Assembly (NCBI GenBank): GCA_008012115.1
Contig: SSEB01000008.1
Coordinates: forward strand, 186,001 to 250,000
Length of the DNA: 64,000 nt
Direction of reading: 5' to 3'
From: Nevskiaceae bacterium
GTDB lineage: Bacteria > Pseudomonadota > Gammaproteobacteria > Nevskiales > Nevskiaceae
This document shows positions 2,977 to 62,120 of the stretch, in pieces. Each line of letters begins with the position of its first letter. The first letter of the stretch is position 1. The notes under the pieces are model-generated. The model was not told the origin of the DNA, did no database searches, and worked only from the letters and a program-made list of their open reading frames with translations. The position numbers were made by a program, and so were the translations under genes.

Positions 2977-3090
2977 GCCACCCGCTCTCACGCGTTCCCC
3001 CGGGGAAATCGTTTATTTTTATTTATTGTTTTTATATTTGATAGATATTTAATAACAAAGTGTGGCCACCCGATGCTTACAGCGGGTGGC
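2977..3090. repeat. 114-bp symmetric AT-core element, copy 1
   Basis: The left end is GCCACCCGCT (2977-2986) and the right end AGCGGGTGGC (3081-3090). The inner GTT is at 3011-3013 and the inner AAC at 3054-3056. The 46 bp between and including them contain only five G/C. The left arm has a TTCCCCCGGGGAAA palindrome (2995-3008). The right arm carries an extra GGCCACCCG (3064-3072) that can pair with the right terminus. The copy lies between divergent genes, so it is upstream of both. Confidence 0.95.
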
Positions 3091-3136
3091 CGTTTGCGGG
3101 CTCTTCCGGCGCGCGCAAACCCGCTAAGCTTCGGCC

Positions 3137-4078
3137 ATGAAAACCACCCGCCCGACTCCCGCGCGCCTGTCGCTGCGCGCCCAAGTGCTGCGCCGCGTGA
3201 CCCGGCTGCTGCTCCGTCCCGTCCTCAGCGGCGACATGCCGATTCCCCGCCAGCGCGCACGCCTGGCACAGATCAGCCGCCTGATGGGCCTGATCCCGCT
3301 GCCGCGCGGCACGCTGGTCTCGCAGCAGCCGCTGGGCGGCGTGCCGACGGAGTGGCTGGAAAATCTCCACGCCGGCGTGCAGGGCTATCTGCTCTACCTG
3401 CACGGCGGCGCCTACGCCATCGGCTCGCCCGCCAGTCATCGCAACCTTACCGCACACCTGGCCAAGCGCTGCGGCGTGCGCGTGGCGGTGCCGGACTATC
3501 GCCTGGCGCCGGACCATCCGTTTCCGGCGGCGGTGGACGATGCCCTGGCCGCTTACCGCGCGCTGATCGACATGGGCGTGGCGGCGCAGGACATCGTCAT
3601 CGCCGGCGACTCCGCTGGCGGCGGTCTCACGCTGGCCTGCGCGCTGGCGATCCGCGACGCCGGCCTGCCGCTGCCGGCCGGCCTGATCTGCCTGTCACCG
3701 TGGACCGACCTCACCGGCTCCGGCCAGAGCATGACCGGCAATGCCGCCACCGAGGCGATGCTCAGCCACCGCGCCACCGGCGTTTATGCCGGCGCCTACC
3801 TCAATGGCGCCGATCCGCGCACGCCGCTGGCTTCGCCGATGTACGCCGATCTCGCCGGACTGCCGCCGCTGCTGATCCAGGTCGCCGACGCCGAAATTCT
3901 TTACAACGACGCCACGCGGCTGGCCGACGCCGCCCAGCGCGCCGGCGTCCGCACCGACCTGCAGGTCTACGCCAACCTGTGGCATGTCTGGCAGCTCTAT
4001 GCCGGGCAGATGCCGGAGGCCGACGACGCCGTCGCCAGCATGGCGCAGTTCGTCACCGCCAGGCTGGGCGGCGCATGA
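3137..4078 (+). CDS. Alpha/beta hydrolase of the hormone-sensitive lipase family
   Basis: The 313-residue product has the oxyanion-hole HGGAYAIGS near residue 92 and the nucleophile elbow GDSAGGG near residue 156. Together these define the HSL-type (family IV) carboxylesterases. The late DAEILY and LWHVWQLY segments fit the acid and histidine of the triad. It probably hydrolyses short acyl or aryl esters in the cytoplasm. Its stop overlaps the start of the next hydrolase (ATGA at 4075-4078), so the two are co-translated. The ATG at 3137 is 47 bp downstream of a 114-bp element; no strong ribosome-binding site is seen. Confidence 0.88.
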   Translation: MKTTRPTPARLSLRAQVLRRVTRLLLRPVLSGDMPIPRQRARLAQISRLMGLIPLPRGTLVSQQPLGGVPTEWLENLHAGVQGYLLYLHGGAYAIGSPASHRNLTAHLAKRCGVRVAVPDYRLAPDHPFPAAVDDALAAYRALIDMGVAAQDIVIAGDSAGGGLTLACALAIRDAGLPLPAGLICLSPWTDLTGSGQSMTGNAATEAMLSHRATGVYAGAYLNGADPRTPLASPMYADLAGLPPLLIQVADAEILYNDATRLADAAQRAGVRTDLQVYANLWHVWQLYAGQMPEADDAVASMAQFVTARLGGA

Positions 4079-4965
4079 CGCCGGCGCAGTGGCGCGCCGC
4101 CGGCCGCCGCTTCGACTTCAGGCAGCACGCGATCTTCTATCGCGACGAGGGCGGCGGCAGCCGCGCGCTGCTGCTGATCCACGGCTTTCCGACCGCGTCC
4201 TGGGATTACGCGCGCCTCTGGCCCGAGCTGAGCCGGCGCTTCACGCGGCTGGTGGCGCCGGACATGCTCGGCTTCGGCTTTTCCGACAAGCCGGCGCAGC
4301 ATGCGTACTCGCTGATGGAGCAAGCCGACCTGCACGAGGCGCTGCTGGCGCAGCTCGGCGTGCACCGTGTCGACATCCTCGCCCACGACTACGGCGTGAG
4401 CGTGGCGCAGGAGCTGCTGGCGCGACAGCTGGAGCGCGACGGCGCCGGCCTGCGCATCGACTCGGTGGCCCTGCTCAACGGCGGACTGTTTCCGGAAACC
4501 CACCGCATGACCTTCACCCAGCGCCTGCTGCGCTCGCCGCTGGGACCGCTGCTGGCCGGGCGGATGAACCAGGAACGCTTCGGCCGCAGTCTGTCGGTGG
4601 TGTTCGGCCCGCTCACCAAGCCCAAGCCGGACGAGATACGGCAGTTCTGGGAGCTGGTGACTTACAACGACGGCCCGCGCGCCATGCCGCGCCTGATCGG
4701 CTACGTCGATGAGCGCCGCCGCCAGCGCGAGCGCTGGGTCGGCGCCCTGCAGAACACGCGGGTGCCGCTGCGCCTGATCAATGGCCCGGAAGACCCGGTG
4801 TCGGGCGCGCATATGGTGGCGCGCTACCGCGCCCTGGTGCCCAATCCCGACGTGGTAACGCTGGACGGCGTCGGCCACTACCCGCAGACCGAAGCGCCGA
4901 AGGCCGTGCTCGGCGCCTATTTCGCGTTCCTCGACCGCCTGCCCGGCTCAGCTGCCCGGCTTTAG
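4075..4965 (+). CDS. Alpha/beta hydrolase, haloalkane dehalogenase / MEST-like
   Basis: This 296-residue protein has the HGFPTASWDY oxyanion region near residue 38. The nucleophile elbow AHDYGVSVAQ near residue 104 has Asp in place of Ser, as in haloalkane dehalogenases, epoxide hydrolases and the MEST group. GPEDPVSG and GVGHYPQTE near the C-terminus fit the acid and the catalytic histidine. The HDYG form points towards the MEST/epoxide-hydrolase side rather than a proven dehalogenase. The start ATG overlaps the previous stop, making a two-gene operon. The last 18 bp overlap the 3' end of the convergent gene on the minus strand. Confidence 0.82.
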   Translation: MTPAQWRAAGRRFDFRQHAIFYRDEGGGSRALLLIHGFPTASWDYARLWPELSRRFTRLVAPDMLGFGFSDKPAQHAYSLMEQADLHEALLAQLGVHRVDILAHDYGVSVAQELLARQLERDGAGLRIDSVALLNGGLFPETHRMTFTQRLLRSPLGPLLAGRMNQERFGRSLSVVFGPLTKPKPDEIRQFWELVTYNDGPRAMPRLIGYVDERRRQRERWVGALQNTRVPLRLINGPEDPVSGAHMVARYRALVPNPDVVTLDGVGHYPQTEAPKAVLGAYFAFLDRLPGSAARL

Positions 4966-11845: not shown

Positions 11846-11959
11846 GTCACCCGCTGTCGCCTCAGGCGCTGCGGGATTTGTTATAAAATATTATTCGTAT
11901 TTAAATTCGATCAATATTTTATAACGCTCTGATCTTGCTCTTTGCCGAGAGCGGGTGCC
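11846..11959. repeat. 114-bp symmetric AT-core element, copy 2
   Basis: The left end is GTCACCCGCT (11846-11855) and the right end AGCGGGTGCC (11950-11959). The inner GTT is at 11880-11882 and the inner AAC at 11923-11925. In this copy the core ends form a perfect 13-bp inverted repeat, GTTATAAAATATT at 11880-11892 and its complement at 11913-11925. Seven G/C occur in the 46-bp core. The left arm holds CGCCTCAGGCG. The copy fills the gap between two co-directional minus-strand genes, directly upstream of phosphoribulokinase. Confidence 0.95.
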
Positions 11960-19195: not shown

Positions 19196-19309
19196 GCCAC
19201 CCGCTGGTCCGGATCAACGCAGGCAAAATGTTTTTATTTATTATTCAATTTAATTTTTATTAATTATAATATAACAAACTCCCGGTACGTTGACGGTGGA
19301 GCGGGTGAC
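19196..19309. repeat. 114-bp symmetric AT-core element, copy 3
   Basis: The left end is GCCACCCGCT (19196-19205) and the right end AGCGGGTGAC (19300-19309). The inner GTT is at 19230-19232 and the inner AAC at 19273-19275. Only three G/C occur in the 46-bp core. The terminal match extends outward as GGC on the left and GCC on the right. The copy begins 31 bp past a terminator T-run and ends 86 bp before the AsmA start. Confidence 0.95.
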
Positions 19310-19394
19310 GCCGTCCGGGGAATTCCCGGCGCCGACATGGGTCCAATCTCCGTCGCTTACACTAGTTCGTCTTCTACGCGCTTCGATCGGAACC

Positions 19395-21620
19395 ATGAGC
19401 AAGCCCCTCAAAATCGTCCTCGCCATCCTCGGCGGTTTCGTCGCACTGCTGATCGTCGCGGCCATCGCGCTGCCGCTGCTGTTCGACCCCAACCATTTCC
19501 GCGCGCAGATTTCGGCAACGGTGAACGACGAGTACCACCGCAAGCTGGAGCTGGGCGACATCAAGCTCAGCGTGTTTCCGTGGCTGCGGGTGCGCGTCAG
19601 CCAGGTGACGCTGGGCAACGCCGAGGGCTTCGGCAGCGAGCCCTTCGCGCAGGTCGGCGAACTCGACGTCGGCGTCAAGCTGATGCCGCTGCTGTTCGAT
19701 CGCCAGCTGCAGGCCAGCACCCTGAGCCTCTCCGGTCTGCGACTGCACCTGCAGAAGAACGCCAAGGGCGTCACCAACTGGGCGGACCTGACGACATCGA
19801 AGGATGAAGACAAGACGCCCAAGCCGCAGAAAAGCGAAGGCGAAGGCTTTGCCCTGAAGGGCGTCAACGTCAGCGGTATCGAGATCAGCGATGCCGCGCT
19901 CGACTACAGCGACGCGCAGGCCGGAAAGCACTACAGCGTTGACCACCTGAGCCTCAAGACCGGCACGCTGAAGCCGGGCCAGCCCGTGGACGTGACGCTG
20001 GCGCTGGCGCTCGACTCCAAGGCGCCGCAGGCCCATGTCGAACTCAAGCTCGGCGGCACGCTGGTCACGGACGTGGCGGCCAAGACCTACGCCGTCAAGG
20101 ATCTCAAGCTGGATGCCGACCTCAGTGGCGCCGCGGTGCCGGGCGGCAAGCAGAAAGTCGCCCTGCGCGGCGATGCGCGCTACGACCAGGGCCAGGGCAG
20201 TGCCCAACTGAGCAAGGCCTCCCTGCAGGCGGCGGGCGTGACGCTGGAGACCGAGATCAGCGGCAGCGGGCTCAACGGCGATGCGCCGAAGCTCAGCGGG
20301 CCGATCATCATCAAGCCGTTCAAGCCGCGCGAGGCGCTGACGCAACTCGGCATCAAGCTGCCGGAGACCGCGGACAAGGCGGCGCTGTCCGACGCCAGCC
20401 TCAAGGCGCAGTACAACGGCGATTTCAAGAGCGCCGCACTCAGCGGCCTGACGCTGGACCTCGACCAGACCAAGCTCAGCGGCAGCCTCAATATCCGCGA
20501 CTTCGCCACGCAGGCGATTGAATTCGCGCTGCAGGCCGATCAACTCGACGTGGACCGCTACCTGCCCCCGAAGAAGGCCGCCGAGTCCGGCAGCGCTGGC
20601 GGCGATCCCGCCACCGCGCGCACCGCGCTCAACGCCACCAAGCTGCCCGGCGATGCGCTCAACGCGCTCAACGTCAATGGCAGTGTCGAGATCGGCACGC
20701 TCAAGGCCAGCGGCCTGCAGTTGAGCAATGTGCGGCTCAAGCTCAGCGGCGCCAAGGGCGCGCCCAAGCAGCAGGAACTGAGCGCCAAGCTCTATGGCGG
20801 CCAGATCGCGGCCACCACCAAGGTCTCCGGCAAAAGCTACGGCGTCAACGCGCAGCTGCAGTCGCTCAACGTCGAGCCCTTCCTCAAGGACCTGACTGGC
20901 AAGGACAAGCTCAGCGGCGTCGGCAGCCTCAAGCTTTCGGTGACCGGTAACGGCGCCACCGTCGGCGAGTTGCGCCGCACCCTCAACGGCGATGTCAGCC
21001 TCAATCTGCAGAACGGCGCAGTGAAGGGCTTCAACCTCGGCCAGATGCTGCGCGACGCGCAGGCGACGTTCGCGGGTCAGGCCTCGTCGGCGCAGAGCAA
21101 GAGCACCAAGGAAACCGACTTTGCGGCCGTCTCCGCCAGCGGCAAGATCGTCAACGGCATCCTCAAGTCGGACTCGCTCGACGCGCGCAGCCCGCTGCTG
21201 CGCATGAGCGGCAGCGGCGAGATCGATCTGGTCAACGAAACCATCAATTACACCGCCAAGCCTACCGTCGTCGAGAACAGCGAGGGCCAGGGCGGCAAGG
21301 ATCTCTCGGCGCTGCGCGGCCTGACCATTCCCGTGCAGCTCAGCGGCAGCCTCTACGACCCGCAGGTGCGGCTGGCCGTCGGCGATGCTCTCAAGCAGAA
21401 GGCGACGGCCGCCATCCAGCAGCAGCTCGGCAGTCATGCCGATGAAATCCAGCAGAAGCTGAAGGACAAGCTTGGCGACAACCTGGGTGGCGTACTCGGC
21501 AACCTGCTCGGCGGCAAGAAGGCCGAAACGCAGACACCGCCCGCACAACCGGCGCCCGCCCAGCCCCCACCCGCGCAGCCGACGCCTGAGCAGACGCAGC
21601 CCCAGAAGCCCGGCACCTGA
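19395..21620 (+). CDS. AsmA-family envelope protein
   Basis: The 741-residue protein has a single N-terminal membrane helix (about residues 6-28, VLAILGGFVALLIVAAIALP). A large periplasmic part follows, starting FDPNHFRAQISATVNDEYHRKLELGDI, typical of AsmA proteins. The C-terminal third contains the second AsmA region with GDVSLNLQNGAVKGFNLGQML. AsmA-like proteins are thought to act as bridges for lipid movement or in outer-membrane assembly. The tail is Gln/Pro/Ala-rich and probably disordered. Its TGA shares an A with the mutY ATG. Confidence 0.88.
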   Translation: MSKPLKIVLAILGGFVALLIVAAIALPLLFDPNHFRAQISATVNDEYHRKLELGDIKLSVFPWLRVRVSQVTLGNAEGFGSEPFAQVGELDVGVKLMPLLFDRQLQASTLSLSGLRLHLQKNAKGVTNWADLTTSKDEDKTPKPQKSEGEGFALKGVNVSGIEISDAALDYSDAQAGKHYSVDHLSLKTGTLKPGQPVDVTLALALDSKAPQAHVELKLGGTLVTDVAAKTYAVKDLKLDADLSGAAVPGGKQKVALRGDARYDQGQGSAQLSKASLQAAGVTLETEISGSGLNGDAPKLSGPIIIKPFKPREALTQLGIKLPETADKAALSDASLKAQYNGDFKSAALSGLTLDLDQTKLSGSLNIRDFATQAIEFALQADQLDVDRYLPPKKAAESGSAGGDPATARTALNATKLPGDALNALNVNGSVEIGTLKASGLQLSNVRLKLSGAKGAPKQQELSAKLYGGQIAATTKVSGKSYGVNAQLQSLNVEPFLKDLTGKDKLSGVGSLKLSVTGNGATVGELRRTLNGDVSLNLQNGAVKGFNLGQMLRDAQATFAGQASSAQSKSTKETDFAAVSASGKIVNGILKSDSLDARSPLLRMSGSGEIDLVNETINYTAKPTVVENSEGQGGKDLSALRGLTIPVQLSGSLYDPQVRLAVGDALKQKATAAIQQQLGSHADEIQQKLKDKLGDNLGGVLGNLLGGKKAETQTPPAQPAPAQPPPAQPTPEQTQPQKPGT

Positions 21621-22723
21621 TGCGCGACGGATCGGCGAAGATCGCGGACTTCGCGACACGGCTGCTGCACTGGTTCGACCGCCACGGCCGGCACGACCTG
21701 CCCTGGCAGCATCCGCGCGAGCCATATCGCGTGTGGCTGTCGGAAATCATGCTGCAGCAGACGCAGGTCAGCACCGTGATTCCGTTCTTCCGGCGTTTTC
21801 TTGCGCGCTTTCCCGACGTGCGCTCGCTGGCGCAGGCCCCGCTCGACGACGTGCTGGCGCATTGGGCCGGGCTGGGCTACTACGCCCGCGCGCGCAATCT
21901 CCACCGCTGCGCGCAAATGATCGTGGAACGCCACGGCGGCGAGTTTCCGCGCGATCTGGAAGCGCTGACCGACCTGCCAGGCATCGGCCGCTCCACCGCA
22001 GGCGCGATCCTGGCGCAGGCGTTCGGTCAGCGTCACGCCATCCTCGACGGCAACGTCCGCCGCGTGCTCGCGCGCCACGCCGCCATCGCCGGCTGGCCGG
22101 GACAGCCCGCCGTGCAGAACAAGCTCTGGACATTGTCCGAGCGCCTGCTGCCGCGTGAGCGGCTCGCCGACTATACGCAAGCGATCATGGACCTGGGCGC
22201 CACCGTCTGCAGCAGCCGCAAACCTGCTTGCGGCATCTGCCCCCTGCGCGACGACTGCGCCGCGCGGCTCGAAGGCCGCGTGCTCGACTATCCCGGTGCC
22301 AAGCCCAGACGCGCACATCCGCAGCGGCGCACGTGGATGCTGGTGATCGAAAACGCGGGAGGCGAAATCTTGTGCGAACGCCGTCCGCCAGCCGGCATCT
22401 GGGGTGGCCTCTGGTGCCTGCCGATGACCGAGGCATCGCAGGACTGGCCCGCCTACTGCCGCACGCGTTTTGGCCTGCATTGCAGCCCGGCCTCGCCGCT
22501 GCCAGCGATGCGCCATGGCTTCACCCACTTCGATCTCGAAATCCTGCCGCTGCGCCTGCGCATGCTGGCCGCTGATGACACGATCCGCGAAGGCAGTGAC
22601 CTGGCGTGGATTAAAATGTCGGCCTCGCCCGCCGTCGGCTTGCCGGCGCCGGTGCGCAAACTGCTGGAATCACCCAACCTGAACCTGGATCGACTGCAAT
22701 GCCCCGGACCGTCCACTGCGTAA
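21620..22723 (+). CDS. mutY: A/G-specific adenine DNA glycosylase
   Basis: MutY removes adenine mispaired with 8-oxoguanine. The 367-residue protein has the [13 protein letters not shown] segment, the helix-hairpin-helix [18 protein letters not shown] with the catalytic Asp in LDGNVRRV, and the four-cysteine iron-sulfur motif C-x6-C-x2-C-x5-C in the [17 protein letters not shown] region. The C-terminal part is the NUDIX-like recognition domain. It overlaps yggX by 25 bp, the same partner order as in E. coli. Confidence 0.96.
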
Positions 22724-22983
22724 AACTAGGTATCGACGCCGATGGACTGGAGCGCCCGCCCTACCCCGGCCCGCTGGGACAGCGCATCTACGAGCAGGTG
22801 TCGAAAAAAGCCTGGCAGGACTGGCTGGCCCACCAGACGCGGCTGATCAACGAGTACCGGCTGACCCTCTCCGATGGCGAGGCACGCAAGTTCCTGGCCA
22901 GCGAAATGGAAAAATTCTTCTTCGGCGGCGAACTCACCGGCACCCACTACGTGCCGCTGGAAAATCCGCTGAAAAATCCTTGA
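22699..22983 (+). CDS. yggX: Fe(II) trafficking protein YggX
   Basis: The 94-residue protein matches YggX, a small protein linked to iron handling and protection of iron-sulfur clusters from oxidation. It keeps the N-terminal conserved cysteine in RTVHCVKLG, the [12 protein letters not shown] segment, and [19 protein letters not shown]. The gene begins inside the end of mutY, an iron-sulfur enzyme, so the pair fits functional coupling. Confidence 0.95.
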
Positions 22984-23056
22984 CTCAGGCCGGCCGGCCC
23001 GCTCTAATACGCGGCCTCGCGGTGCAAGGCTGCGAATTTGCGGTTGGTTTCACGTT

Positions 23057-23132
23057 GGCCGAGTAGCTCAGTCGGTAGAGCAGGGGATTGAAAATCCCCG
23101 TGTCGGCGGTTCGATTCCGTCCTCGGCCACCA
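23057..23132 (+). tRNA. tRNA-Phe (anticodon GAA)
   Basis: The gene begins GGCCGAG and ends CTCGGCC-A-CCA, with CCA encoded. The anticodon stem GGGGA/TCCCC encloses TTGAAAA, giving anticodon GAA. The D arm has AGCTCAGTCGGTAGAGC and the T arm TTCGATTC. A broken integrase lies 26 bp downstream, which marks this tRNA as the attachment site of an old integrative element. Confidence 0.97.
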
Positions 23133-23158
23133 GTTAAAAATCCTTCGGCGGCAACGAG

Positions 23159-23600
23159 TTAAATCTTCGCGGACGCGACGCGTAGATGATGGACTTTTTG
23201 CGACTGTGTCGTAAACGTACCTAAAATCCGGCCCGCTGCGAACTGGAGATGATCCGCCGCGAGATGTGCATACCTCATGACCCTCTCCAACGACGCCCAG
23301 CCTCCAAGCTCCATCAATTCTTGAAGACTGGTCCCGCTCCGCACGTGCCAGGACGCCCAAGTGCGCCGCAGGTCGTACCAGCGAAAGTTCTTATCCCCGC
23401 CTTGTCACAGGCCTTGTGCCAAGCTTCTGTTGAACTCCGCGCCACGGGCTTGTCCTGCAACGTAAACGCATATTCCGGGTGACGTCCGGGATAGCCCCGC
23501 AACACCTCGACCGCGTCCTCGTTCAGTGGAACCGCGAAACGCCGCCCGTCGTTCGCCAATGTGGTCGCTCGCCTCCCGGATCAAATGACTGAGCACCAAG
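23159..23600 (-). pseudogene. Tyrosine-type integrase remnant, frameshifted and 5'-truncated
   Basis: On the minus strand, one frame encodes an integrase segment with AVPLNEDAVEVLRGYP and WHKACDKAGI. A frameshift near 23385 then moves to another frame encoding FRWYDLRRTWASWH, QELMELGGW and RYAHLAADHL. These are the Arg, His/Trp and Tyr regions of the catalytic domain. The N-terminal DNA-binding half is missing and the upstream sequence has stops. Its 3' end points at tRNA-Phe 26 bp away. It is the remains of the integrase that brought in a tRNA-Phe island. Confidence 0.85.
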
Positions 23601-23642
23601 TGCTCCAGGCAGGGATAGTCACTACAGCTTGTCCTCTGGCCG

Positions 23643-25472
23643 CTATTCGACTGTCACCGATTTCGCTAGATTGCGTGGGCGATCGACGTCAGTGCCTCGA
23701 ATGAGCGCGGTGTAGTAGGCCAATAGCTGAAGTGCCACGGCGTAGGTGATGGGTGCGATCAGCTCATCTGCTGCGGGCATTGCAATCACGGTTACGCCCG
23801 GCCCGGCCTGCACGGCATGCTCATCGTCCGTGAACACGAACAACTCGCCACCCCGCGCCGAGACCTCGCGCAGGTTGGATTTCACCTTTTCAATCCAGCC
23901 ATTGCGTGGGGCCACCGCGATTACCGGCATCTCGGCGTCGACCAGCGCCAAGGGTCCGTGCTTGAGTTCGCCGGCGGCGTAGGCCTCTGCGTGGATATAA
24001 GAGATTTCCTTTAGCTTGAGCGCGCCTTCTTCCGCAATCGGGAAGAAAGGTCCGCGTCCCAGGAACAGTGCGTGTCGGCGCGCGGCGATGCGGCCCGCGA
24101 CGGTAGCTATGGCGTCGTCCATTTTCAATACCGCCTCGACTGCGCCAGCGGCATTGCGGAGTTGCCGCACGATCTCGCGTTCGCTTTGCCTTCCGCCATG
24201 ACGTCGCGCGAGAACACCGGTCAGCATCAGTAGCGATAGCAATTGCGTGGTGAACGCCTTGGTCGAGGCCACACCAAGCTCAGGACCGGCGTGCGTCAAT
24301 AAGCTGAGATCAGACTCGCGCACCAGCGAACTCTCCGGCACGTTGCAGATGCTCAGCGTTGCCAGATAGTCGGCCTTTTGGGCGTAGCGCAGCGCTGCAA
24401 GCGTGTCGGCGGTCTCACCGGACTGCGAAATACCGATGAAAAGGCTGTCCTCCACAACCACCGGCGAACGATAACGATATTCACTGGCCAGCTCGACGCC
24501 ACAGGGGATACCGGCGATTGCCTCGATCCAGTAGCGTGCGACGCGGCCTGCGTGGTGGCTGGTGCCGCAGGCTGCGATCTGTACGTTTTGGATACGTTCG
24601 AGCAGGTTGCGTGCGCGAAAGCCGAGGCTATCTCCAAGGAGAGCCTCACCGGCGATGCGCCCTTCTAGCGTGGCAGCCAACGCACGCGGCTGCTCGTGGA
24701 TTTCCTTGAGCATGAAATGGCGGTATCCGCTCTTGTCGGTGGCGCCAACCGGAATTTGCAACTCTTTTACCGGTCGTAACGCGACATGTCCGTTTGCGTC
24801 GACGATATTGATATCGCCGCGCTTGATTTCGGCGACATCCCCTTCTTCGAGAAACATGAATCGATGCGTTACCTGCAACAGTGCGGTAACGTCGGAGGCG
24901 ACGAACTGCTCGGACTCACCGATGCCGAGCACGAGCGTACTACCGCTGCGCGCCACCACCAAAGTGTCAGGCGCCTGCACAGAAAGCACCGCAATGGCGT
25001 AAGCCCCACACAACTCGCGGACGGCTTTCTGAACCGCGACGAACAGGCTATTGCCGGCGGCGAGGTGATAATGGATCAGATGCGCGATGACTTCAGAGTC
25101 AGTTTCAGAAAGAAACTCATAGCCGCGACTCTCGAGTTTTCCTTTGAGAATATCGTAGTTCTCGATGATGCCATTGTGTACCACCGCGACATCGTCTCCG
25201 GAGACATGGGGATGCGCGTTGCGCTCGGCCGGCTCGCCGTGCGTGGCCCAGCGCGTATGTCCGATACCTAGACGGCTGCTCACCATACCGCGACCGAGGC
25301 TGCGGCGTAGCTGGCTAACCTTGCCGACACGGCGCCGCACGGTCATGCCCCGCTCGTTGTCGAGAACCGCCACGCCAGCGGAGTCGTACCCGCGGTACTC
25401 GAGCCGTCGCAACGCGTCCACCAGGAAAGGAGTGACGTTTTTTTGGGCAACCACGCCCACTAGTCCACACAT
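23643..25472 (-). CDS. glmS: Glutamine-fructose-6-phosphate aminotransferase
   Basis: GlmS makes glucosamine 6-phosphate, the entry to UDP-GlcNAc. The 609-residue protein starts MCGLVGVVAQ, with Cys2 as the glutaminase nucleophile after Met removal. It has the HTRWATHGEP segment, two SIS domains (ISQSGETADTLAAL, LFLGRGPFFPIAEEGALKLKE split across them) and ends KSVTVE, as the family does. It is the last gene of the exopolysaccharide operon, so it is probably a dedicated second copy that raises amino-sugar supply. The ATG at 25472 is fixed by Cys2. Confidence 0.95.
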   Translation of the reverse strand: MCGLVGVVAQKNVTPFLVDALRRLEYRGYDSAGVAVLDNERGMTVRRRVGKVSQLRRSLGRGMVSSRLGIGHTRWATHGEPAERNAHPHVSGDDVAVVHNGIIENYDILKGKLESRGYEFLSETDSEVIAHLIHYHLAAGNSLFVAVQKAVRELCGAYAIAVLSVQAPDTLVVARSGSTLVLGIGESEQFVASDVTALLQVTHRFMFLEEGDVAEIKRGDINIVDANGHVALRPVKELQIPVGATDKSGYRHFMLKEIHEQPRALAATLEGRIAGEALLGDSLGFRARNLLERIQNVQIAACGTSHHAGRVARYWIEAIAGIPCGVELASEYRYRSPVVVEDSLFIGISQSGETADTLAALRYAQKADYLATLSICNVPESSLVRESDLSLLTHAGPELGVASTKAFTTQLLSLLMLTGVLARRHGGRQSEREIVRQLRNAAGAVEAVLKMDDAIATVAGRIAARRHALFLGRGPFFPIAEEGALKLKEISYIHAEAYAAGELKHGPLALVDAEMPVIAVAPRNGWIEKVKSNLREVSARGGELFVFTDDEHAVQAGPGVTVIAMPAADELIAPITYAVALQLLAYYTALIRGTDVDRPRNLAKSVTVE

Positions 25473-25497
25473 GATCGTTCTCCGTTGGGATTTCTCT

Positions 25498-26514: not shown

Positions 26515-26515
26515 G

Positions 26516-31399: not shown

Positions 31400-31402
31400 G
31401 GC

Positions 31403-33483: not shown

Positions 33484-33553
33484 CTATCGGCTCCGGGCGG
33501 AAACGAATTGACGGTTTCCGAATCCCTCATTCATTTCGTTCTGGAGGTTCAAC

Positions 33554-33892: not shown

Positions 33893-33945
33893 GAAGCCTC
33901 AAACTCAGGCAGAGCCGCTTGTCGCTCGGCGAAAGATTCCCTGCC

Positions 33946-33980
33946 CGTCTTGCAGGCGCACCGGGCTCCTGCAAGACGGT
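33946..33980 (+). terminator. Strong hairpin after the EF-hand gene
   Basis: CCGTCTTGCAGG (33946-33957) and its exact complement (33969-33980) form a 12-bp stem around an 11-base loop. No T-run follows. It lies 53 bp after the EF-hand stop and 66 bp before the sensor-kinase start, and could attenuate read-through into it. Confidence 0.55.
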
Positions 33981-34046
33981 GAAAAGTAGCTGAACGCCCG
34001 CCCCTCACAGCGGTCCAATCTGCGACTCCATTGTTGCAGGGACGCA

Positions 34047-38374: not shown

Positions 38375-38398
38375 TCCGCCCGGCGCCGGGTGCTCGAT

Positions 38399-38965: not shown

Positions 38966-39027
38966 CGCTTCCTTTCTCCAAATCATCCGCCGGCACGTCC
39001 ACCGCGCGGCGCCGGATTATATGCAAG

Positions 39028-39312
39028 TCAGCCGTACTGCTTTTCGACCTTTGCCACTTCGGCGACGTATTCGCGCATGGCCGCCTCGCAGCTCATGCCC
39101 TTGAGCGACTCCCAGGCCTGGTACTTGAAGCGGCCGATGACATCGAACATGCCCGGCTTCTTGCCCGAGACATCGCCATCGGTGGCCTGGCGATAGAGCG
39201 CGTACATGCGCAGCTTGTAGTCGTTGCCCGGCTTGAAGGCGCCGTCTTCCGGCGCGTTGCGCACCTTGTCGACGGCGGCGGCGAACTGCTTGGCAAGATC
39301 GGATGCAGACAT
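39028..39312 (-). CDS. Acyl-CoA-binding protein
   Basis: The 94-residue protein is a full-length ACBP. It keeps LRMYALYRQATDGDV, the KPGMFDVIGRFKYQAW region with the conserved Lys and Tyr that hold the CoA, and the four-helix length. ACBPs bind long-chain acyl-CoA in the cytoplasm. They are universal in eukaryotes but patchy in bacteria, where they occur in some lipid-degrading gammaproteobacteria. The serine hydrolase gene on the same strand is 25 bp away, so the two may form an operon. Confidence 0.92.
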   Translation of the reverse strand: MSASDLAKQFAAAVDKVRNAPEDGAFKPGNDYKLRMYALYRQATDGDVSGKKPGMFDVIGRFKYQAWESLKGMSCEAAMREYVAEVAKVEKQYG

Positions 39313-39337
39313 GGCAGTCTCCTGGAATACCGGATAC

Positions 39338-40600
39338 TCAATCGCAATAGCGCGAGATGGTGGTGAGCAGCTTGGCCAGCGGCAGCAGATGCCCGCCGAG
39401 CACCGCCTTGCCGGTGACGAGCAGGCCGACGGCGATGTCGCGGCGGGGATCGGCCCAGCCCAGGATGTTCATGAATCCCAGGTGGCCATAGGCGCCGTTG
39501 GTGTTGGGGCCGTAGATGCCCACCGGCGTGGCGCCCAGCATCATGCCCTCGCTGTAGCGCATCGGGATGTTGAGCGTGTGGTCGAAAGCCATGCGTCCGG
39601 CCGGGCGCACCGCGCGCTGCACCGTCTCGTGCTTCATGACCTGCCGGCCGTTGTAGATGCCGCCGTCGAGCAGCATCTGGTAGAAGCGCGACAGCTCCTC
39701 GGCAGTGGCGTAGATGTTGCCGGCGGGAATCACGGCATCCATGAACACTTCCGAGTTGGACACTTCGATCACGCGGTTCATCGGCGCCATCAGCGCGCGC
39801 TCGAGAATCACCGAAATCGGAAACCGCACCGGCGTGCCGGCGGCATAGTTCAGCGCCACGCGCTCGCGGTACTGCGGCGCCAGGCCATAGGTGAAGTACT
39901 TCATGCCCAGCGGCTTGCGCAGGCGCTCGTCCAGGTACTGCTGCACCGGCGCGCCGGTCACGCGCTGGATGATCTCGGCAAGGATGAAGCCGCCGGTGAT
40001 GGCGTGATACGACATCTTGTTGGCGCGTCCCGGCGTCGGTGGCGCGTCGCAGATCATCTTGATGACGCGCTCCCAGTCCAGCAGCAGTTCCGGCTGCAGA
40101 TCGCCGACAGGCAGATCGAGCGTCGGGAAGCCACCGCGATGCGCCAGCACCTCGGCCACCGTGGTGTCGGCCTTGCCGCTGGCGCCGAAGGCCGGCAGGT
40201 AGCGCGCCACCGGCATGTCGAGGTCGATGGCGCCGTCCTCGGCCAGCAGATGCGTCAGCACCGCCGTCACCGCCTTGGAAGCGGAGAACAGGCAGATCGG
40301 ATCGTCCGCCTTCAGCAGGCGCTTCTCGGCGCGCGGCGACTCCAGCGGCCCGTTGCCCTGCGCGTGTCCCAGCGCGCGGTTGATCAGCACCTGGCCACGA
40401 CGGCGCAGGCAGAAACTCAGCCCCGGATAGGCGCCGCTGCGGTAGAGATTCTCGACATCGTTCCAGATCGCCTCCACCGCCTGGTGATCGAGGCTGGCGG
40501 CGGACGCCGGCGCCTCACCCGCCTCGTCGCGGTGCAGCACCTGCGAGAGATTGTCTGGCGTGCGGACCTTGAGGTACTGGAACCACTTGAGATTAAGCAT
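39338..40600 (-). CDS. Serine hydrolase of the beta-lactamase/EstB class
   Basis: The 420-residue protein has the S-x-x-K motif in FSASKAVTAVL near residue 106 and a Tyr motif, MSYHAITGG, near residue 197. GAYGHLGF near the C-terminus is close to the H/K-T-G site. These define class C beta-lactamase-like esterases (EstB type). There is no clear signal peptide, so it is probably a cytoplasmic esterase. GAGGA lies upstream of the ATG at 40600. Neighbouring ACBP hints at an acyl-ester substrate, which is inference. Confidence 0.85.
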   Translation of the reverse strand: MLNLKWFQYLKVRTPDNLSQVLHRDEAGEAPASAASLDHQAVEAIWNDVENLYRSGAYPGLSFCLRRRGQVLINRALGHAQGNGPLESPRAEKRLLKADDPICLFSASKAVTAVLTHLLAEDGAIDLDMPVARYLPAFGASGKADTTVAEVLAHRGGFPTLDLPVGDLQPELLLDWERVIKMICDAPPTPGRANKMSYHAITGGFILAEIIQRVTGAPVQQYLDERLRKPLGMKYFTYGLAPQYRERVALNYAAGTPVRFPISVILERALMAPMNRVIEVSNSEVFMDAVIPAGNIYATAEELSRFYQMLLDGGIYNGRQVMKHETVQRAVRPAGRMAFDHTLNIPMRYSEGMMLGATPVGIYGPNTNGAYGHLGFMNILGWADPRRDIAVGLLVTGKAVLGGHLLPLAKLLTTISRYCD

Positions 40601-40645
40601 GGAATGAAGTCCTCGAAAATTGGCGGCAGTCTGTTCGGCGAGGCC

Positions 40646-43102
40646 TCAGGGGTCAACCGCCGATGCGCCGTTGGATGGCGGCAGCGCGGCCATGTCCGTG
40701 GCCCAGCCGCTGGTGTCGGCGCTGGCACCAACCGCATAGCGCAGCGTGCCGCCGTGCGCGATGTCGGAAAAATGCAGCCAGGCACGATCCAGCGCGACGC
40801 CGTCGCGGGTCAGGCCCTGCACAGTCGCGCCTTGACCATCGCGGACGATGCGCAGATCGCCAGCGGGCAGATGCAGCGTGGCGGCGGGAAACAGCGGCGC
40901 ATTAAGCAGCAGCGTATCGGTGCCGGGCACGGCCGGCATCAGGCCCAGCGCCGAGAGCACCCACCAGGCCGACATGGTGCCGAGATCGTCATTGCCGGGC
41001 ATGCCGGTGGGCGCGTCGTCGTAGAGCGTCGTCAGCGCGCGCTGCACCAGTGGCCCGGTCTGCGCGGGGCGGCGCAGCCAGGCGTAGAGCCAGGGCGTGA
41101 ACAGCGTCGGCTCGTTGCCGAGGTAGGCGTAGGCCGACTTCGGGCCGGCATTGATCTGCGTGAAGAAGGTATCCAGCCGCCGCGCCGCCGCGTCCTCGCC
41201 GCCCAGCGCGGCGATCAGGCCGGCGACATCGTGCGGCACGAACCAGGTGTACTGTGCGCCATCGCCCTCGACGAAGCCGTCGCCGCTGGTGGCGTCGTAA
41301 CCGCTCTGGAAAGTGCCGAGCGCCGAGCGCGGCTCGATGGCGCGCGTCGCCGGGTTCAGCAGGTTCTTCCAGTTGCCGGCGCGGGCGCGCAAGGCATCGG
41401 CGCGCGCCCCCTGCCCCGTCGCATCGGCGAAACGACCGACGGCGAAATCGGCCAGCGCGTACTCCAGCGTGGTGGCGGCGCTACCCCACACGAAATCGGA
41501 ACTGAGCACGTAGCCGATACCGCCGAGCGGGCTGTCGAGCTCGTGTGGCACGTAACCCAGCGACTGATAGGCGTCCAGCGCCTGGCGTTCGACGTAGGCG
41601 TTGTTGAGGCTGACCGGATTGTTCGCGTGCCCGCTCTGGGTCGCGCCCTTGAGCATCGCCTCGAAAGCGGCGGCGGTGTCGAAATTGCGCACGCCGAAGG
41701 CATAGGCGCCAGCGATCGTCGGCGCCGCCGGATCGCCGACCATGGTGTCGGTCTGCTGGTTGGCGTAGGACCATTTCGGCAGCCAGCCGCTTTGCTGCGC
41801 GTCCACCACCAGGGACTGCATCATGTCGCCCGCGCGCTGCGGATCGAGCATCGCCAGCAGCGGCAGCTGCGTGCGGTACACGTCCCATCCGGAAAACGTC
41901 TGGTACTGCATGCGCGCCGTCTCGCGGTGCACCTGTCCGTCCATGCCCAGGTAGTCGCCGTTGACGTCGCTGAACACGCTGGGCGACAGCAGCGCGTGAT
42001 ACAGCGCGGTATAGAACACGCGCGACCAGCGCGGATCGGCGCCGGCGCCGAGTTCGATGCGCGCCAGCTCGTGTTGCCAGCGGGCCTGCGCTGCGGCGCG
42101 CAGTGCATCGAAATCACGGCCGGCGAGTTCCGCCGCGAGATTGGCGCGCGCGTTGTCGACGCTCACGTATGAGATCGCCACGCGCAGCAGCACCGTCGCG
42201 CCCGGCTCGAAGCCCAGCACCGCGCCGGCCTGCGCCGTGCCGCTGGGATTGCCGGGGATCGATGCCGGTCCGCCGGGCACCGGCTCGTAGTTGACCGGCA
42301 ACACGCCGGTGTCGCTGGCGCGGGTGCCGCCGGCGCTGAACGCCTGCTTCTGCCAGGTGCCGGTGCTGCGCAGCGGCTGGTCGAACACGGCGGCGAAATA
42401 CACGGTGTAGCGGTTGTCCTGGAAACAGAAGCGGCCGCTGCTGGCGCTGCCGCTGATCTCGCGCCGCGCGGGATCGACCGTGATGCTGGCCGCGGAATCG
42501 GCCATGGCGCTGCCACCGGCGTTGACCAGGAGCGTCGCCGGATGATCGGCGGGATAGCGGATGCGCAGGGCACCGCCGTGCAGCGTCGCGGTCAACTCCA
42601 CATCTACCGGCGCGGCGCCGGCGGGATCGAGCCGCACCGCGTAGTAGCCGGGCTGCGCCTGCTCGTGCGCATGATCGAAAAGCATCGGCAGATCGGCGTT
42701 GAGGCCGGCGCCCAGCGGCGGCACCGGTGAAGAGGTGATCTCGCGCGCCAGCGGCAGCATCGGGACGTCTTGCAGGATCGCGCAACCCGCGCCGGAGATG
42801 TGCGTGAGGCTGAAACCCTTGATGCGCGTGTCGCTGTAGGTGTAGCCGCCGGCGAAGTTGTCGGTGGACGGCGTCGTGTCCGGCGACAACTGCGCCATGC
42901 CGAACGGCAGCGTCGCGCCGGGAAAAGTGTTGCCCGCACCGCCGCCGGTGCCGTAGTCCGCTGCGCCCGACTGCGTGCCGACCAGGGGATTGACCTGCGC
43001 CAGCACGTCGCGCGCCGTCGTCGACGGCGCCGACGAGCGTGCGCAGCCCCCGAGCAGCGCGGCCAACACCACCGCAAAAAGGTACGTTTCCCGCTGGTTC
43101 AT
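40646..43102 (-). CDS. GH92-family alpha-mannosidase lipoprotein
   Basis: The 818-residue protein has a lipobox (LAALLGGC) and then NPLVGTQSG, the GGAGNTFPGA segment and PFGMAQLSPD. Further on come SGWDVYRTQLPLLAMLDP, GNDDLGTMSAWWVLSALGLMP and PGTDTLLLNAPLF, the characteristic blocks of glycoside hydrolase family 92. GH92 enzymes are calcium-dependent exo-alpha-mannosidases acting on mannans or N-glycans. The end of a 114-bp element is only 13 bp from its ATG; GGGAGG in between serves as ribosome-binding site. Confidence 0.92.
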   Translation of the reverse strand: MNQRETYLFAVVLAALLGGCARSSAPSTTARDVLAQVNPLVGTQSGAADYGTGGGAGNTFPGATLPFGMAQLSPDTTPSTDNFAGGYTYSDTRIKGFSLTHISGAGCAILQDVPMLPLAREITSSPVPPLGAGLNADLPMLFDHAHEQAQPGYYAVRLDPAGAAPVDVELTATLHGGALRIRYPADHPATLLVNAGGSAMADSAASITVDPARREISGSASSGRFCFQDNRYTVYFAAVFDQPLRSTGTWQKQAFSAGGTRASDTGVLPVNYEPVPGGPASIPGNPSGTAQAGAVLGFEPGATVLLRVAISYVSVDNARANLAAELAGRDFDALRAAAQARWQHELARIELGAGADPRWSRVFYTALYHALLSPSVFSDVNGDYLGMDGQVHRETARMQYQTFSGWDVYRTQLPLLAMLDPQRAGDMMQSLVVDAQQSGWLPKWSYANQQTDTMVGDPAAPTIAGAYAFGVRNFDTAAAFEAMLKGATQSGHANNPVSLNNAYVERQALDAYQSLGYVPHELDSPLGGIGYVLSSDFVWGSAATTLEYALADFAVGRFADATGQGARADALRARAGNWKNLLNPATRAIEPRSALGTFQSGYDATSGDGFVEGDGAQYTWFVPHDVAGLIAALGGEDAAARRLDTFFTQINAGPKSAYAYLGNEPTLFTPWLYAWLRRPAQTGPLVQRALTTLYDDAPTGMPGNDDLGTMSAWWVLSALGLMPAVPGTDTLLLNAPLFPAATLHLPAGDLRIVRDGQGATVQGLTRDGVALDRAWLHFSDIAHGGTLRYAVGASADTSGWATDMAALPPSNGASAVDP

Positions 43103-43114
43103 GCCACCTCCCGC

Positions 43115-43228
43115 CCCACCCGCTGCCGCCGTTTTCCCTGGGGAAATTGTTTTATTTTATATTTATATTTTTAATTCTTATTATATTTTTAAACATCTAC
43201 GTCACCGCCGTTGCCGTTAGCGGGTGGC
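43115..43228. repeat. 114-bp symmetric AT-core element, copy 4
   Basis: The left end is CCCACCCGCT (43115-43124) and the right end AGCGGGTGGC (43219-43228). The inner GTT is at 43149-43151 and the inner AAC at 43192-43194. Only three G/C occur in the 46-bp core. The left arm carries TTCCCTGGGGAAA (43134-43146), matching the arm of copy 1 at nearly the same position. The copy lies between the divergent GH92 and MscS genes. Confidence 0.95.
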
Positions 43229-47552: not shown

Positions 47553-48818
47553 TCACACGTAGTCGTCCACCAGCCCGCGCCGTCTGCGCACGAGGACCGG
47601 CGCGGCCGTCTCGTCGCCAGTTGTGGCGCCCGCGCCCGTGGAAAATCCCGACGCGTCGTCGCGCCCCTGGTGCGGCGTGTCCTGCCGCTGCGGCAGCTGC
47701 GAGTGCACGCTGGCCTGGCCGAGGCTGATGCCTTCGCGCCCCAGCATCTCGCGCAGTTGCGGCAGCGCCTGTTGCAGCGCCTCGCGCGTCTGCGCATGCG
47801 CGGCGCCGAAACTCACCTGCGCCTGATCCTGATCCAGTCGCAGGCTGATGCTGAGCGGGCCGAGCTCCGCCGGATGCAGGTGGATCTGCACCTGCTGCAG
47901 GTCCTGCCCCAGGCTCCACACCACCTGCTGCCCCAGCGCCTCGCTCCAGCCGGCGTGATGCACCGGCAGCGGGAGGGTCAGGGTCGCCGTCGCCGCGCCA
48001 GCGGCCGGCGCAGGCACAGACGGCAGCGTCACCGGCACGGCGGAAGGTGGCGGGACCGGCGGCGCAGACGCGGCGTCCGCGCGCTGCAGCCAGGCGCTGA
48101 ACTGCTGGAAATCGGGTTCCGCCGCCGTCGGTGCATCGGAGCGGGCAGCGACAGGCGCGGCGGCCGGGGATGGCGCCGCTGTCGTGCCGGCGACCGAGGC
48201 GTCCGGTGCGGGTGCGGCGGCAGACGTTGCTCGTGGCGAGACCCCGGTGACGTCCGCCGGCGGGGTCCTGCTGGCCGGCGCTTCGCTGACCGCACGCTCG
48301 GGGCCGGTCGCGGTAGCCGCCGGCACCGGGCACGACGCGACCGCAGGCGGCGGCGCTGTCACCGGCAGCATCGCGGCCAGCCAGGGGTTGACCGGCGCCG
48401 CGCTTTCGCCGGCCGGGGTCGCCTCGGCGGCGGCCGTGTCGTGCGGCGGCGCAGCCGCCTCCGGTAATGCCGGCACGGCGCCCGGCGTCTCGCCGAGATT
48501 CAATCCCGCCGAGGCATCGGGCGCGAGGCCCGGTGTGGGCGTCGGCACCCGCGCAGGTGCCAGGCTGGCGGCGGGCGGCGACGCGTGGGTTGCACCGGCC
48601 GGCGTGCCGGCGTCCGCAGGCGCCAGGCGCGGCGTCGATGCGGGGTTCAAGGTCGGCAGCGCGGCAGTGCCCTCGCTCGGGTTCGCCGCTGCGATCGGCG
48701 CGGCGGCTGGCGTCACGGCGGTCGGCAGAAAGAAGTCCGCCGGCGTGCCGGCAGGCACGGGAAGCGGCCACCCGCTATTGGGTTTGGCACTGGTGATGTT
48801 GTTATTAATTATATTCAT
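47553..48818 (-). CDS. fliK: Flagellar hook-length control protein
   Basis: The 421-residue protein is Ala/Pro-rich and low in order over the first 280 residues. It has a conserved C-terminal FliK domain: QQVVWSLGQDLQQVQIHLHP, ELGPLSISLRLDQDQ, then QLREMLGREGISLGQASV. FliK measures hook length and switches export specificity. The ATG at 48818 lies in the AT core of a 114-bp element, and the first 18 or so codons (MNIINNNITSAKPNSGWP) are read from that element. No other start gives a better upstream region. Confidence 0.88.
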   Translation of the reverse strand: MNIINNNITSAKPNSGWPLPVPAGTPADFFLPTAVTPAAAPIAAANPSEGTAALPTLNPASTPRLAPADAGTPAGATHASPPAASLAPARVPTPTPGLAPDASAGLNLGETPGAVPALPEAAAPPHDTAAAEATPAGESAAPVNPWLAAMLPVTAPPPAVASCPVPAATATGPERAVSEAPASRTPPADVTGVSPRATSAAAPAPDASVAGTTAAPSPAAAPVAARSDAPTAAEPDFQQFSAWLQRADAASAPPVPPPSAVPVTLPSVPAPAAGAATATLTLPLPVHHAGWSEALGQQVVWSLGQDLQQVQIHLHPAELGPLSISLRLDQDQAQVSFGAAHAQTREALQQALPQLREMLGREGISLGQASVHSQLPQRQDTPHQGRDDASGFSTGAGATTGDETAAPVLVRRRRGLVDDYV

Positions 48819-48880
48819 TTTTTAAATTTGATAGATATTAAATAACAACATAGGCGGCCGCGATGGCCAGAGCGGGTGGC
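48767..48880. repeat. 114-bp symmetric AT-core element, copy 5 (supplies the fliK start)
   Basis: The left end is GCCACCCGCT (48767-48776) and the right end AGCGGGTGGC (48871-48880). The inner GTT is at 48801-48803 and the inner AAC at 48844-48846. Five G/C occur in the core. ATGTTGTTATT (48796-48806) pairs with its exact complement in 48841-48851. The right half of the core is nearly identical to copy 1. The copy lies between fliJ and fliK inside the operon and overlaps the 5' end of fliK. Confidence 0.95.
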
Positions 48881-54500: not shown

Positions 54501-54614
54501 GCCACCCGCTGTTGCCCTTCAGCTCATCCGTTTAGTTTATATTTATTAAACGAATTTATATTCGACATATAAATAAAAACAATTCCGTCTCGCCCATCGG
54601 CAAGAGCGGGTGGC
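54501..54614. repeat. 114-bp symmetric AT-core element, copy 6
   Basis: The left end is GCCACCCGCT (54501-54510) and the right end AGCGGGTGGC (54605-54614). The inner GTT is at 54535-54537 and the inner AAC at 54578-54580. Seven G/C occur in the core. The left end extends outward as GGC. The copy lies 109 bp upstream of the fliE sigma-54 promoter; the 158 bp between it and mtnC hold nothing else I can see. Confidence 0.95.
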
Positions 54615-60720: not shown

Positions 60721-60765
60721 GGGCTCCTCCCCTGGCCGGCATCGTAAACCAGCTAAAATGGCCGC

Positions 60766-61983
60766 ATGCAAAACGCCCTCGCCACCCTCGCCGGCCGCCG
60801 CATCCTGCTGGGCGTCACCGGCGGCATCGCCGCCTACAAGGCGGCCGACCTGACGCGCCGCTTCAAGGAAGCCGGCGCCGACGTGCAGGTGGTGATGACC
60901 GCGGGCGCCACCGAATTCGTCGCGCCGCTGACCTTCCAGGCGCTGTCCGGCCGCGAGGTGCGCAGCGCGCTGTTCGACGCCGCGCACGAGGCGGCGATGG
61001 GCCACATCGAACTGGCACGCTGGGCCGACGTCATCGTGATCGCGCCCGCGAGCGCCAACTTCCTCGCGCAGCTCGCGCAGGGCAGCGCCGGCGACCTGCT
61101 GACCACGCTGTGCCTGGCCACCGACCGCCCGATCGCGCTGGCGCCGGCGATGAATCGCCTGATGTGGGGCAACGCGGCGACGCAGGCGAATGTCGCGACG
61201 CTGCGTCAGCGCGGCGTGCACCTCTTCGGCCCCGGCGCCGGCTCGCAGGCCTGCGGCGAAGTCGGCGACGGCCGCATGTGGGAGCCGGTGGAGATCCGCG
61301 CCGCGGTGGCGCAACTGTTCGCGCAGGGGCCGCTGGCCGGCGTGCGCGCAGTGGTCACCGCCGGGCCGACGCGCGAGCCGATCGACCCGGTGCGCGTCAT
61401 CACCAACCGCTCCTCCGGCAAGCAGGGCTACGCCGTGGCGCAGGCGCTGGGCGCGCTGGGCGCGCGCGTGACGCTGGTGTCCGGCCCGACGGCGCTGGCC
61501 GCGCCCGCCGGCGTGCAGCGCATCGACATCGAGACCGCGCAGGACATGCTCGACGCGGCGCTCGACGCGGCAGCGCAAGCCGAGATCTTCGTCGGCACCG
61601 CCGCGGTCGCCGACTACCGCCCGGCCCGCGCCGAGGCGCAGAAGATCAAGAAGAAGGACGCCGCCTTGTCGCTGCCGCTGGAGCGCACCGACGATGTGCT
61701 GAAAGCCGTGCGCGAAAGATTTCCCAGGCTGTTCATGGTCGGCTTCGCCGCCGAGACCGAGAAGCTCGCCGAGCACGCGCAAGGCAAGCTCAAGAACAAG
61801 AAGCTGGACCTGATCGCGGCGAATCTGGTCGGCAACGGCCGCGCCTTCGACCAGGAGGACAATGCCCTGCACCTGTTCTGGCCGGGCGGCGAACAAGAAC
61901 TGGCGCCGGGCTCCAAGACCGCGCTGGCGCGTGAGCTGGCGCAGGTGATCGTACAGCGCTACCGCGAAAAAGCCGGCACCTGA
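60766..61983 (+). CDS. coaBC: Bifunctional phosphopantothenoylcysteine decarboxylase/synthetase
   Basis: The 405-residue protein joins CoaC (flavin-binding [28 protein letters not shown] with the active Asn, CGEVGDGRM with the Cys) to CoaB ([26 protein letters not shown] and [20 protein letters not shown] in separate blocks). It makes phosphopantetheine for coenzyme A. A 114-bp element fills the gap to dut. Confidence 0.97.
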
Positions 61984-62006
61984 GCGTGCACACGGTGCGC
62001 AAAACC

Positions 62007-62120
62007 GCCACCCGCTGTCACCGTTTCGCTGCACCAGCCTGTTATTAAATATATACCTATTTAAATTTCTATTTATTTTTTATAACACCTTTCCCAGGGG
62101 AATCCGCCACAGCGGGTGAC
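62007..62120. repeat. 114-bp symmetric AT-core element, copy 7
   Basis: The left end is GCCACCCGCT (62007-62016) and the right end AGCGGGTGAC (62111-62120). The inner GTT is at 62041-62043 and the inner AAC at 62084-62086. Five G/C occur in the core. TTTCCCAGGGGAAT (62090-62103) lies in the right arm, the mirror of the arm palindrome in copies 1 and 4, so this copy is inverted relative to them. The right end is seven bases from the dut ATG. Confidence 0.95.

Follow-up and report, generated by a model that had tools for sequence, protein, structure and literature searches.

REPs (repetitive extragenic palindromes) are short hairpin-forming repeats, and the sites of the matS/MatP, parS/ParB, SlmA and Noc systems are scattered dyad sites read by a chromosome-organising protein, short and confined to particular chromosome regions. 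BIMEs (bacterial interspersed mosaic elements), of which E. coli has about 600, have been proposed as supercoil-domain barriers, and the barriers of that species are described as randomly placed, with identities that 'remain to be established' (PMC6907758; the H-NS and IHF motif rows of Table 2 in this source are apparently swapped). The E. coli gyrase motif is symmetric and 130 bp long, with a 36-bp centre and a 10.75-bp GC periodicity in both flanks (PMC6379681); phased flanks of this kind are a wrapping signature (see also PMC12393610). H-NS nucleates on the decamer tCGATAAATT (PMC9769918), and the even spacing of DNA uptake sequences was at one time taken to indicate roles in replication, repair or compaction, until it was judged not even enough (PMC1939737). 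Here we analyse a 64,000-nucleotide stretch of a Nevskiaceae bacterium (GCA_008012115.1, contig SSEB01000008.1, positions 186,001 to 250,000; hereafter the window, which is 186001-250000 of the contig we call C5), in which a first-pass annotation had noted seven copies of a symmetric intergenic element with an A/T core. With a probability of roughly 0.45, judged from sequence, the approximately 360 such sites of this genome are anchors of a DNA-wrapping, chromosome-organising complex, forming a lattice that would divide the chromosome into loops of about 8 kb.

All seven copies fit the gap-free template CACCCGCT-N24-GTT-N40-AAC-N24-AGCGGGTG exactly, as had been claimed, and no match occurs in 100 dinucleotide shuffles of the window. 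The length of 'exactly 114 bp' first given to them was right in being one length for all seven; the template itself measures 110 bp, and 114 adds two flanking bases per side. The copies are the following.

2979..3088, unstranded: element 1, 110 bp, exact template, with octamers at 2979-2986 and 3081-3088 and the GTT...AAC A/T core at 3011-3056
11848..11957, unstranded: element 2, 110 bp, exact template, core at 11880-11925
19198..19307, unstranded: element 3, 110 bp, exact template, core at 19230-19275; the final element ahead of a likely acquired island
43117..43226, unstranded: element 4, 110 bp, exact template, core at 43149-43194
48769..48878, unstranded: element 5, 110 bp, exact template, core at 48801-48846
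54503..54612, unstranded: element 6, 110 bp, exact template, core at 54535-54580
62009..62118, unstranded: element 7, 110 bp, exact template, core at 62041-62086

The scale of the family is far larger than these seven copies. Across the source genome (3.25 Mb in 24 contigs, 94.8% complete) the template matches exactly at 259 sites and, when up to 3 mismatches are allowed in its 22 fixed bases, at 363, while the reversed-pattern control gives 0. We read a first sample of 720 kb (C1 1-260 kb, C3, C4 1-100 kb and C5 1-250 kb) and an independent later one (C20 1-400 kb), together 1.12 Mb with 125 elements, and elements are present on all five large contigs read. A profile scan of the 720 kb is bimodal, with 76 elements above 70 bits and 2 matches at 15-25 bits, one of which is a 109-bp near-duplicate at C3:65967 that was added by hand for the spacing analysis, hence 77 elements there. 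The scan of C20 gave 49 elements above 55 bits (39 of them exact) and 2 further matches at 14 and 44 bits; reversed-sequence controls scored below 0 in both samples.

Length is nearly constant. When octamers with at most 1 mismatch each were paired across an A/T centre, the span was 110 bp in 48 of 49 cases and 108 bp in the other (C1 1-260 kb, C5 1-140 kb and the window), and in C20 1-400 kb it was 110 bp in 45 of 51, 109-111 bp in 3 and 118-133 bp in 3, the last perhaps chance pairings. The clearest length variant lies in a local duplication, in which C3:65967 and C3:67354 (L051) are near-identical elements 1.4 kb apart, one shorter by 1 bp. Fixed length thus describes nearly all copies, not every one, and the selection on length proposed from the seven is supported on further contigs outside the window.

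From its outer end to the dyad, each half-element consists of CGCCACCCGCT(G/C)T, an arm of free sequence, TT and finally GTTATWWWWTATNTATCGAATTT. The outer half-sites are CGCCACCCGCT, inverted at both ends, the inner half-sites are the edges of the 46-bp A/T core, and the 24-bp arms are free in sequence and fixed in length. This plan of two outer and two inner half-sites, already put forward for the window, is supported on the further contigs: 99 of the 125 elements match the template exactly, 110 retain both octamers and 111 both inner trimers, and template positions differ from the consensus in 2% of cases, core positions in 30% and arm positions in 54%. Mean identity between copies is 0.66 in the core and 0.35 in the arms, which are mutually unalignable. 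The core is G/C-poor throughout, as first described, with a range of 2-11 G+C in 46 positions among the 125 elements, wider than the 3-7 reported for the window copies. Its half-core consensus, TCGATAAATA, resembles the H-NS nucleation decamer, which occurs at no more than 1 mismatch in 17 of the 125 cores vs 2.0 in shuffled cores.

Some arms carry an additional block. A TTTCCCTGGGGAAATT-like palindrome stands beside GTT in 43 of 230 arms at 11 or more of 16 matches, with about 8 expected after column shuffling; these are the arms of 115 elements (the 76 of the first sample and the 39 exact ones of C20), and the pattern was noticed post hoc. The block occurs in about a third of elements and in both arms of only 2. 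In the window, the left arm of element 4 (43125-43148) has the best copy, TTTCCCTGGGGAAATT with 16/16 matches, and the left arm of element 1 has a TTCCCCCGGGGAAATC-type copy with 13/16. It is possible that this optional block is a third binding site or a trace of common origin.

Bases in the two core halves could pair at 61.2% of positions within an element vs 58.8% between elements (standard error, SE, 1.2), and arm bases at 33.9% within vs 34.4% between, so that the compensatory pairing of a REP/BIME stem-loop is not seen. Because left and right halves hardly covary, the element is not an RNA hairpin, and the two halves appear to act as half-sites almost independent of each other; in the window, Rfam matches are confined to two tRNAs. 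A/T frequency rises and falls about every 10.5 bp in register with the dyad, a pattern that extends about 120 bp from it. Fitted with a 10.7-bp period, this oscillation has an amplitude of 0.156 both in the arms and at 57-87 bp from the dyad, and of 0.060 at 88-120 bp (0.104 for 57-120 bp taken together); none of 2000 shifted controls reached any of these values. For 57-120 bp a period of 10.5 bp fits best; the arms give 11.3 but are too short to fix one. Past 120 bp the oscillation is weak, with P 0.08, 0.018 and 0.0195 in three more distant intervals. Both flank types show it, coding (0.122, 29 halves) and mostly non-coding (0.081, 73 halves). The arms are the better evidence of phase, because they are unalignable between copies.

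Placement is intergenic, as had been noted for the window. Compared with our own rough gene calls, which are based on codon bias, 65 of the 76 elements have no contact with a gene, 9 overlap one by 2-27 bp and 2 overlap more (C3:85500 by 77 bp and C5:27327 by 110 bp), and 0 of the 49 elements of C20 have a mostly coding centre. The elements are indifferent to gene orientation, with 52 co-directional, 15 divergent and 9 convergent junctions among the 76, and 30, 8 and 9 respectively among the 47 classified in C20. The median spacing is 7.8 kb. Relative to 5000 runs of random placement in the same intergenic slots, the coefficient of variation (CV) of gap length is 0.34 vs 0.90 on C1 (0/5000 as low) and 0.32 vs 0.86 on C4 (1/5000 as low, P 0.0002), and the later sample repeats this result on C20 (0.47 vs 0.91; 0/5000). 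Over the 720 kb, gaps below 4 kb make up 8% vs 34% at random and gaps above 13 kb 8% vs 22%, both 0/5000.

Long element-free deserts interrupt this spacing. Low-GC3 runs (at least 3 genes with G+C at third codon positions, GC3, below 0.8), which we infer to be acquired DNA, cover 108 of the 720 kb and hold 0 of the 77 elements, and the gap CV is 0.51 once they are removed. Mean GC3 is 0.75 in a 67-kb desert and 0.73 in a 24-kb one, and the median is 0.76 in a 25-kb desert of C20. The window contains one such interval.

19308..43116, unstranded: element-free desert, holding a low-GC3 gene block (0.65-0.74) at about 23643-37292 that adjoins tRNA-Phe (23057-23132)

The block beside tRNA-Phe (23057-37292) is likely an acquired island. 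Its low-GC3 genes include a SIS/glutamine-amidotransferase, an epimerase, HlyD- and OEP-family export genes, a glycosyltransferase, a TackOD1-GGDEF protein, and a sigma-54 response regulator with its kinase. An A/T-rich island without the template lies next to the block, at 37551-37602.

We then looked at relatives. None of the 84 other genomes of the order contains the template at up to 3 mismatches, and no viral contig contains it exactly; distant blastn searches with a 161-base stretch of element 4 against plasmids and a 131-base stretch at C3:54750 against phages gave no match. Relatives were reached only through a sequence-only profile built from 69 copies, whose E-values are rough and whose per-genome counts are lower bounds, since a cap applied to the candidates scored in each genome (43, and later 150). 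At E <=0.01 this profile matches in at least 10 of 85 order genomes: the source genome, Stenotrophobium rhamnosiphilum GT1R17, all 4 genomes of another genus of the same family (g8), 1 of 3 of a further genus, g4 (G004), and three genomes with 1-2 weak matches. S. rhamnosiphilum is the nearest named strain among the matches listed, with 84% identity in GyrA and a GC content of 54% in the contig compared (66% in our window). In their aligned parts its flanks have 59-85% identity to those of the source genome, and gene order is shared over two long colinear blocks. The sister genome analysed under this name belongs to the same genus as the source genome and is identical to the GT1R17 record over 4428 bases. 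With the higher cap, applied to four genomes, distinct sites number at least 50 in S. rhamnosiphilum (90 two-strand matches), at least 8 in G027 and at least 2 each in G008 and G004.

Searching for the A/T-richest GTK...MAC stretch of 42-51 bp, with ties resolved towards 45-46, gave A/T cores of 45 bp (13), 46 bp (6) and 44 bp (1) at 20 fetched of the 50 S. rhamnosiphilum sites; CCACCCGCT, at 7 or more of 9 matches and 23-25 bp off the core, flanks 9 of the 20 on at least one side (no control run). For g8 and G004 we compared 20 sites, several of which, judging by flanks and neighbours, are one site seen in more than one g8 genome; the core edges are clear at 14 of them (45 bp in 9, 46 bp in 4, 51 bp in 1) and not clear at 6. 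A 45-46-bp A/T core edged by GT(T/G)...(A/C)AC recurs, more sparsely, both in S. rhamnosiphilum and in a different genus of the same family. The dyad-locked phase in S. rhamnosiphilum is close to that of the source genome, at 5.3 vs 4.6 in the arms (P 0.004) and 7.2 vs 7.0 further out (P 0.046), jointly P 0.084. A lattice is not apparent in 400 kb of G027, where 3 of 6 A/T islands were taken as cores, nor in 80 kb of G002 and 60 kb of G005, which have 0 islands at the same threshold. Scanning 20 proteins encoded beside the relatives' elements returned assorted metabolic, transport and housekeeping families and no common neighbour.

Some positions are shared between genomes. Three of the 4 S. 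rhamnosiphilum sites with both flanks mapping to the 720 kb have an element of the source genome at the same gene junction, and at the fourth the source junction holds an extra gene; one shared case is locus L204, a 46-bp A/T core at the junction of window element 2 (11848). Of two mapped g8 sites, one coincides with a source element and the second faces a degenerate copy at C1:119694. Chance coincidence is about 0.21 per site (77 elements, 370 slots), so the excess suggests, without proof, old positions that were vertically kept. The mtnA-gyrA gap of S. rhamnosiphilum (L072 2650-3000, NZ_QANS01000004.1) contains a palindromic repeat of another kind, GTCATTCCGA...GGAATCTTGCTG together with its inverse; the same junction in the source genome carries element C1:248375.

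Fixed length, paired half-sites, helical phasing, transcription-blind intergenic placement and near-regular spacing together point to a large wrapping complex with a chromosomal rather than a regulatory job. In the mechanism we propose, a predicted sequence-specific protein complex would bind, bend and wrap DNA at each 110-bp site, a dimeric or higher assembly would read core and octamers together, the periodicity of about 10.5 bp would reflect the wrapping of about 230-240 bp, and the spacing of about 8 kb the size of a loop or supercoil domain. More tentatively still, and with clear doubt on our part, the sites may form a hard-wired lattice of some 360 nucleosome-like wrapped complexes with DNA-encoded positions, setting fixed loops or supercoil domains through a new wrapping protein unlike H-NS and histones.

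Several observations weigh against anchors of a wrapping complex. Pairing between core halves lies about 2 SE above chance, a marginal excess. The gap CV is no more regular than random on C3 (P 0.47), on C5 (P 0.91) or in the pooled 720 kb (0.88 vs 0.94, P 0.29), which we attribute to the deserts of 67, 27 and 24 kb, and with a mean GC3 of 0.82 the 27-kb desert of C3 cannot clearly be called foreign. At loci of S. rhamnosiphilum without a recognised core, the flanks show equal phase and amplitude (0.105 vs 0.100 in 29 halves, some of them from loci mapped on a single side, with three loci that have a recognised core excluded), so the flank pattern may be inherited or a site preference, not selected wrapping. 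Weak/strong (A/T vs G/C) differences from the sister flanks, at 193 of 1119 compared positions, sum to -1.6 (null standard deviation 10.2), a value that speaks neither for nor against selection on the phase in this lineage. Sites of g8 and G004 have an arm phase of 1.9 vs 4.6 in the source genome (P 0.02) and lack the outer phase (P 0.67). An A/T core is present in the sister at only 2, perhaps 3, of 22 source elements with both flanks in 400 kb, and most of the dense lattice would then be lineage-specific, gained here or lost there. Finally, no binding protein was identified among the families searched, which did not include the ParB, MatP, transposase and RAYT families. H-NS (PF00816) has 0 matches in the source genome and in S. 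rhamnosiphilum, and the MvaT DNA-binding domain PF22055 matched nowhere, positive controls included. Archaeal-type histones (PF00808, the only histone family searched) occur in 0 of 21 genomes, with controls matched in 3 archaea. HU/IHF counts are ordinary, with no extras, and so are GyrA/ParC, for which every one of 16 genomes has 2 family matches. Since H-NS and archaeal-type histones were not found and HU/IHF and GyrA/ParC are ordinary, another protein is inferred.

A recent mobile repeat can be rejected on the unalignable arms and the lack of target duplication. An origin from old miniature transposable elements that have since been domesticated or are decaying seems unlikely to us. On this view CGCCACCCGCT, present inverted at both ends, would be the terminal inverted repeat and the inner sites would bind transposase; target immunity would explain why the spacing is regular, and a bias towards phased, bendable DNA would explain the flank periodicity. 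At 17 of the 22 junctions compared, the intergenic gap is the smaller one in the sister, the difference being 97-159 bp in 8 cases; flank phase exists at sister loci without a recognised core too, and the shared TTTCCCTGGGGAAATT-like arm blocks hint at a common origin. However, of the features of miniature inverted-repeat transposable elements, neither full-length alignability nor target-site duplication is seen: the arms have almost no indels at an identity of 0.35, and no duplication is in excess at offsets 0-4 and lengths 2-12. The low-GC3 runs without copies and the positions common to different genera also speak against a transposon. Strong DNA-gyrase sites, with GyrA arms wrapping the phased flanks and one supercoil pump per interval of about 8 kb, like the Mu central site in the Mu prophage, seem decidedly unlikely to us. 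The elements do share with the gyrase motif and the Mu strong gyrase site a long symmetric design and periodic flanks at about 10.7 bp, and both period and symmetry resemble the E. coli motif (PMC6379681). In contrast to that motif, they have octamers at a fixed distance, a 46-bp A/T core, some 360 copies in one genome and an oscillation that runs on to about 120 bp from the dyad instead of 65; the available part of PMC6379681 mentions neither near-invariant octamers nor an A/T-only core for the gyrase motif. Moreover, most of the 16 genomes with ordinary GyrA/ParC have no profile match.

Self-DNA marks, for instance oversized uptake or exchange-identification sequences, we consider improbable. 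Like the uptake sequences of Haemophilus and Neisseria, the elements would be species-specific self sequences, and their absence from low-GC3 runs fits such a role. Uptake sequences are short, often in genes and not palindromic, whereas a 110-bp site of more than 70 bits stands far above their 9-12 bp. Even spacing was once claimed for them, and 65% and 35% of them lie in reading frames in two species (PMC1939737), unlike the intergenic elements, for which even spacing of the kind does hold on C1, C4 and C20. Bidirectional terminators or structured RNA would suit intergenic, symmetric sequences, yet with hardly any covariation between halves, no enrichment of convergent junctions and no Rfam match in the window besides the two tRNAs, we disfavour them as highly improbable. 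Other described systems match in part. BIMEs, REPs and REPINs also occur as hundreds of intergenic palindromic copies, whereas our elements are 110 bp, nearly fixed in length, centred on an A/T core and near-regular in spacing. With matS, parS, SlmA and Noc sites they share dyad sites scattered over the chromosome, and they differ in being much longer and in occurring on all five large contigs. The half-core TCGATAAATA is like an H-NS nucleation site; unlike such sites, the element has a core of defined length with edges, an outer motif and a genome without a PF00816 match.

The interpretation given in the first-pass annotation is supported in part. A nucleoprotein target, as it had suggested, appears to be the most likely reading, given the near-independent halves and the dyad-locked pattern, with the cause of the flank pattern ambiguous and no protein found. 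As far as tested, we found neither freely varying length nor an even spread through coding sequence, and a literature search (top-ranked results, with incomplete journal coverage) returned no published family with this plan, in agreement with that annotation.

Beyond what the window had revealed, the element occurs in some 360 copies at near-regular spacings of about 8 kb, and elements related to it by their A/T core exist in further genomes of the bacterial family. If these sites are indeed anchors of a chromosome-organising complex, 360 or so sites of one plan at near-regular intervals would be a test system for what sets loop size, and the lattice would point to a new wrapping protein, for which the A/T-core relatives make S. 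rhamnosiphilum a named strain in which it may be sought.

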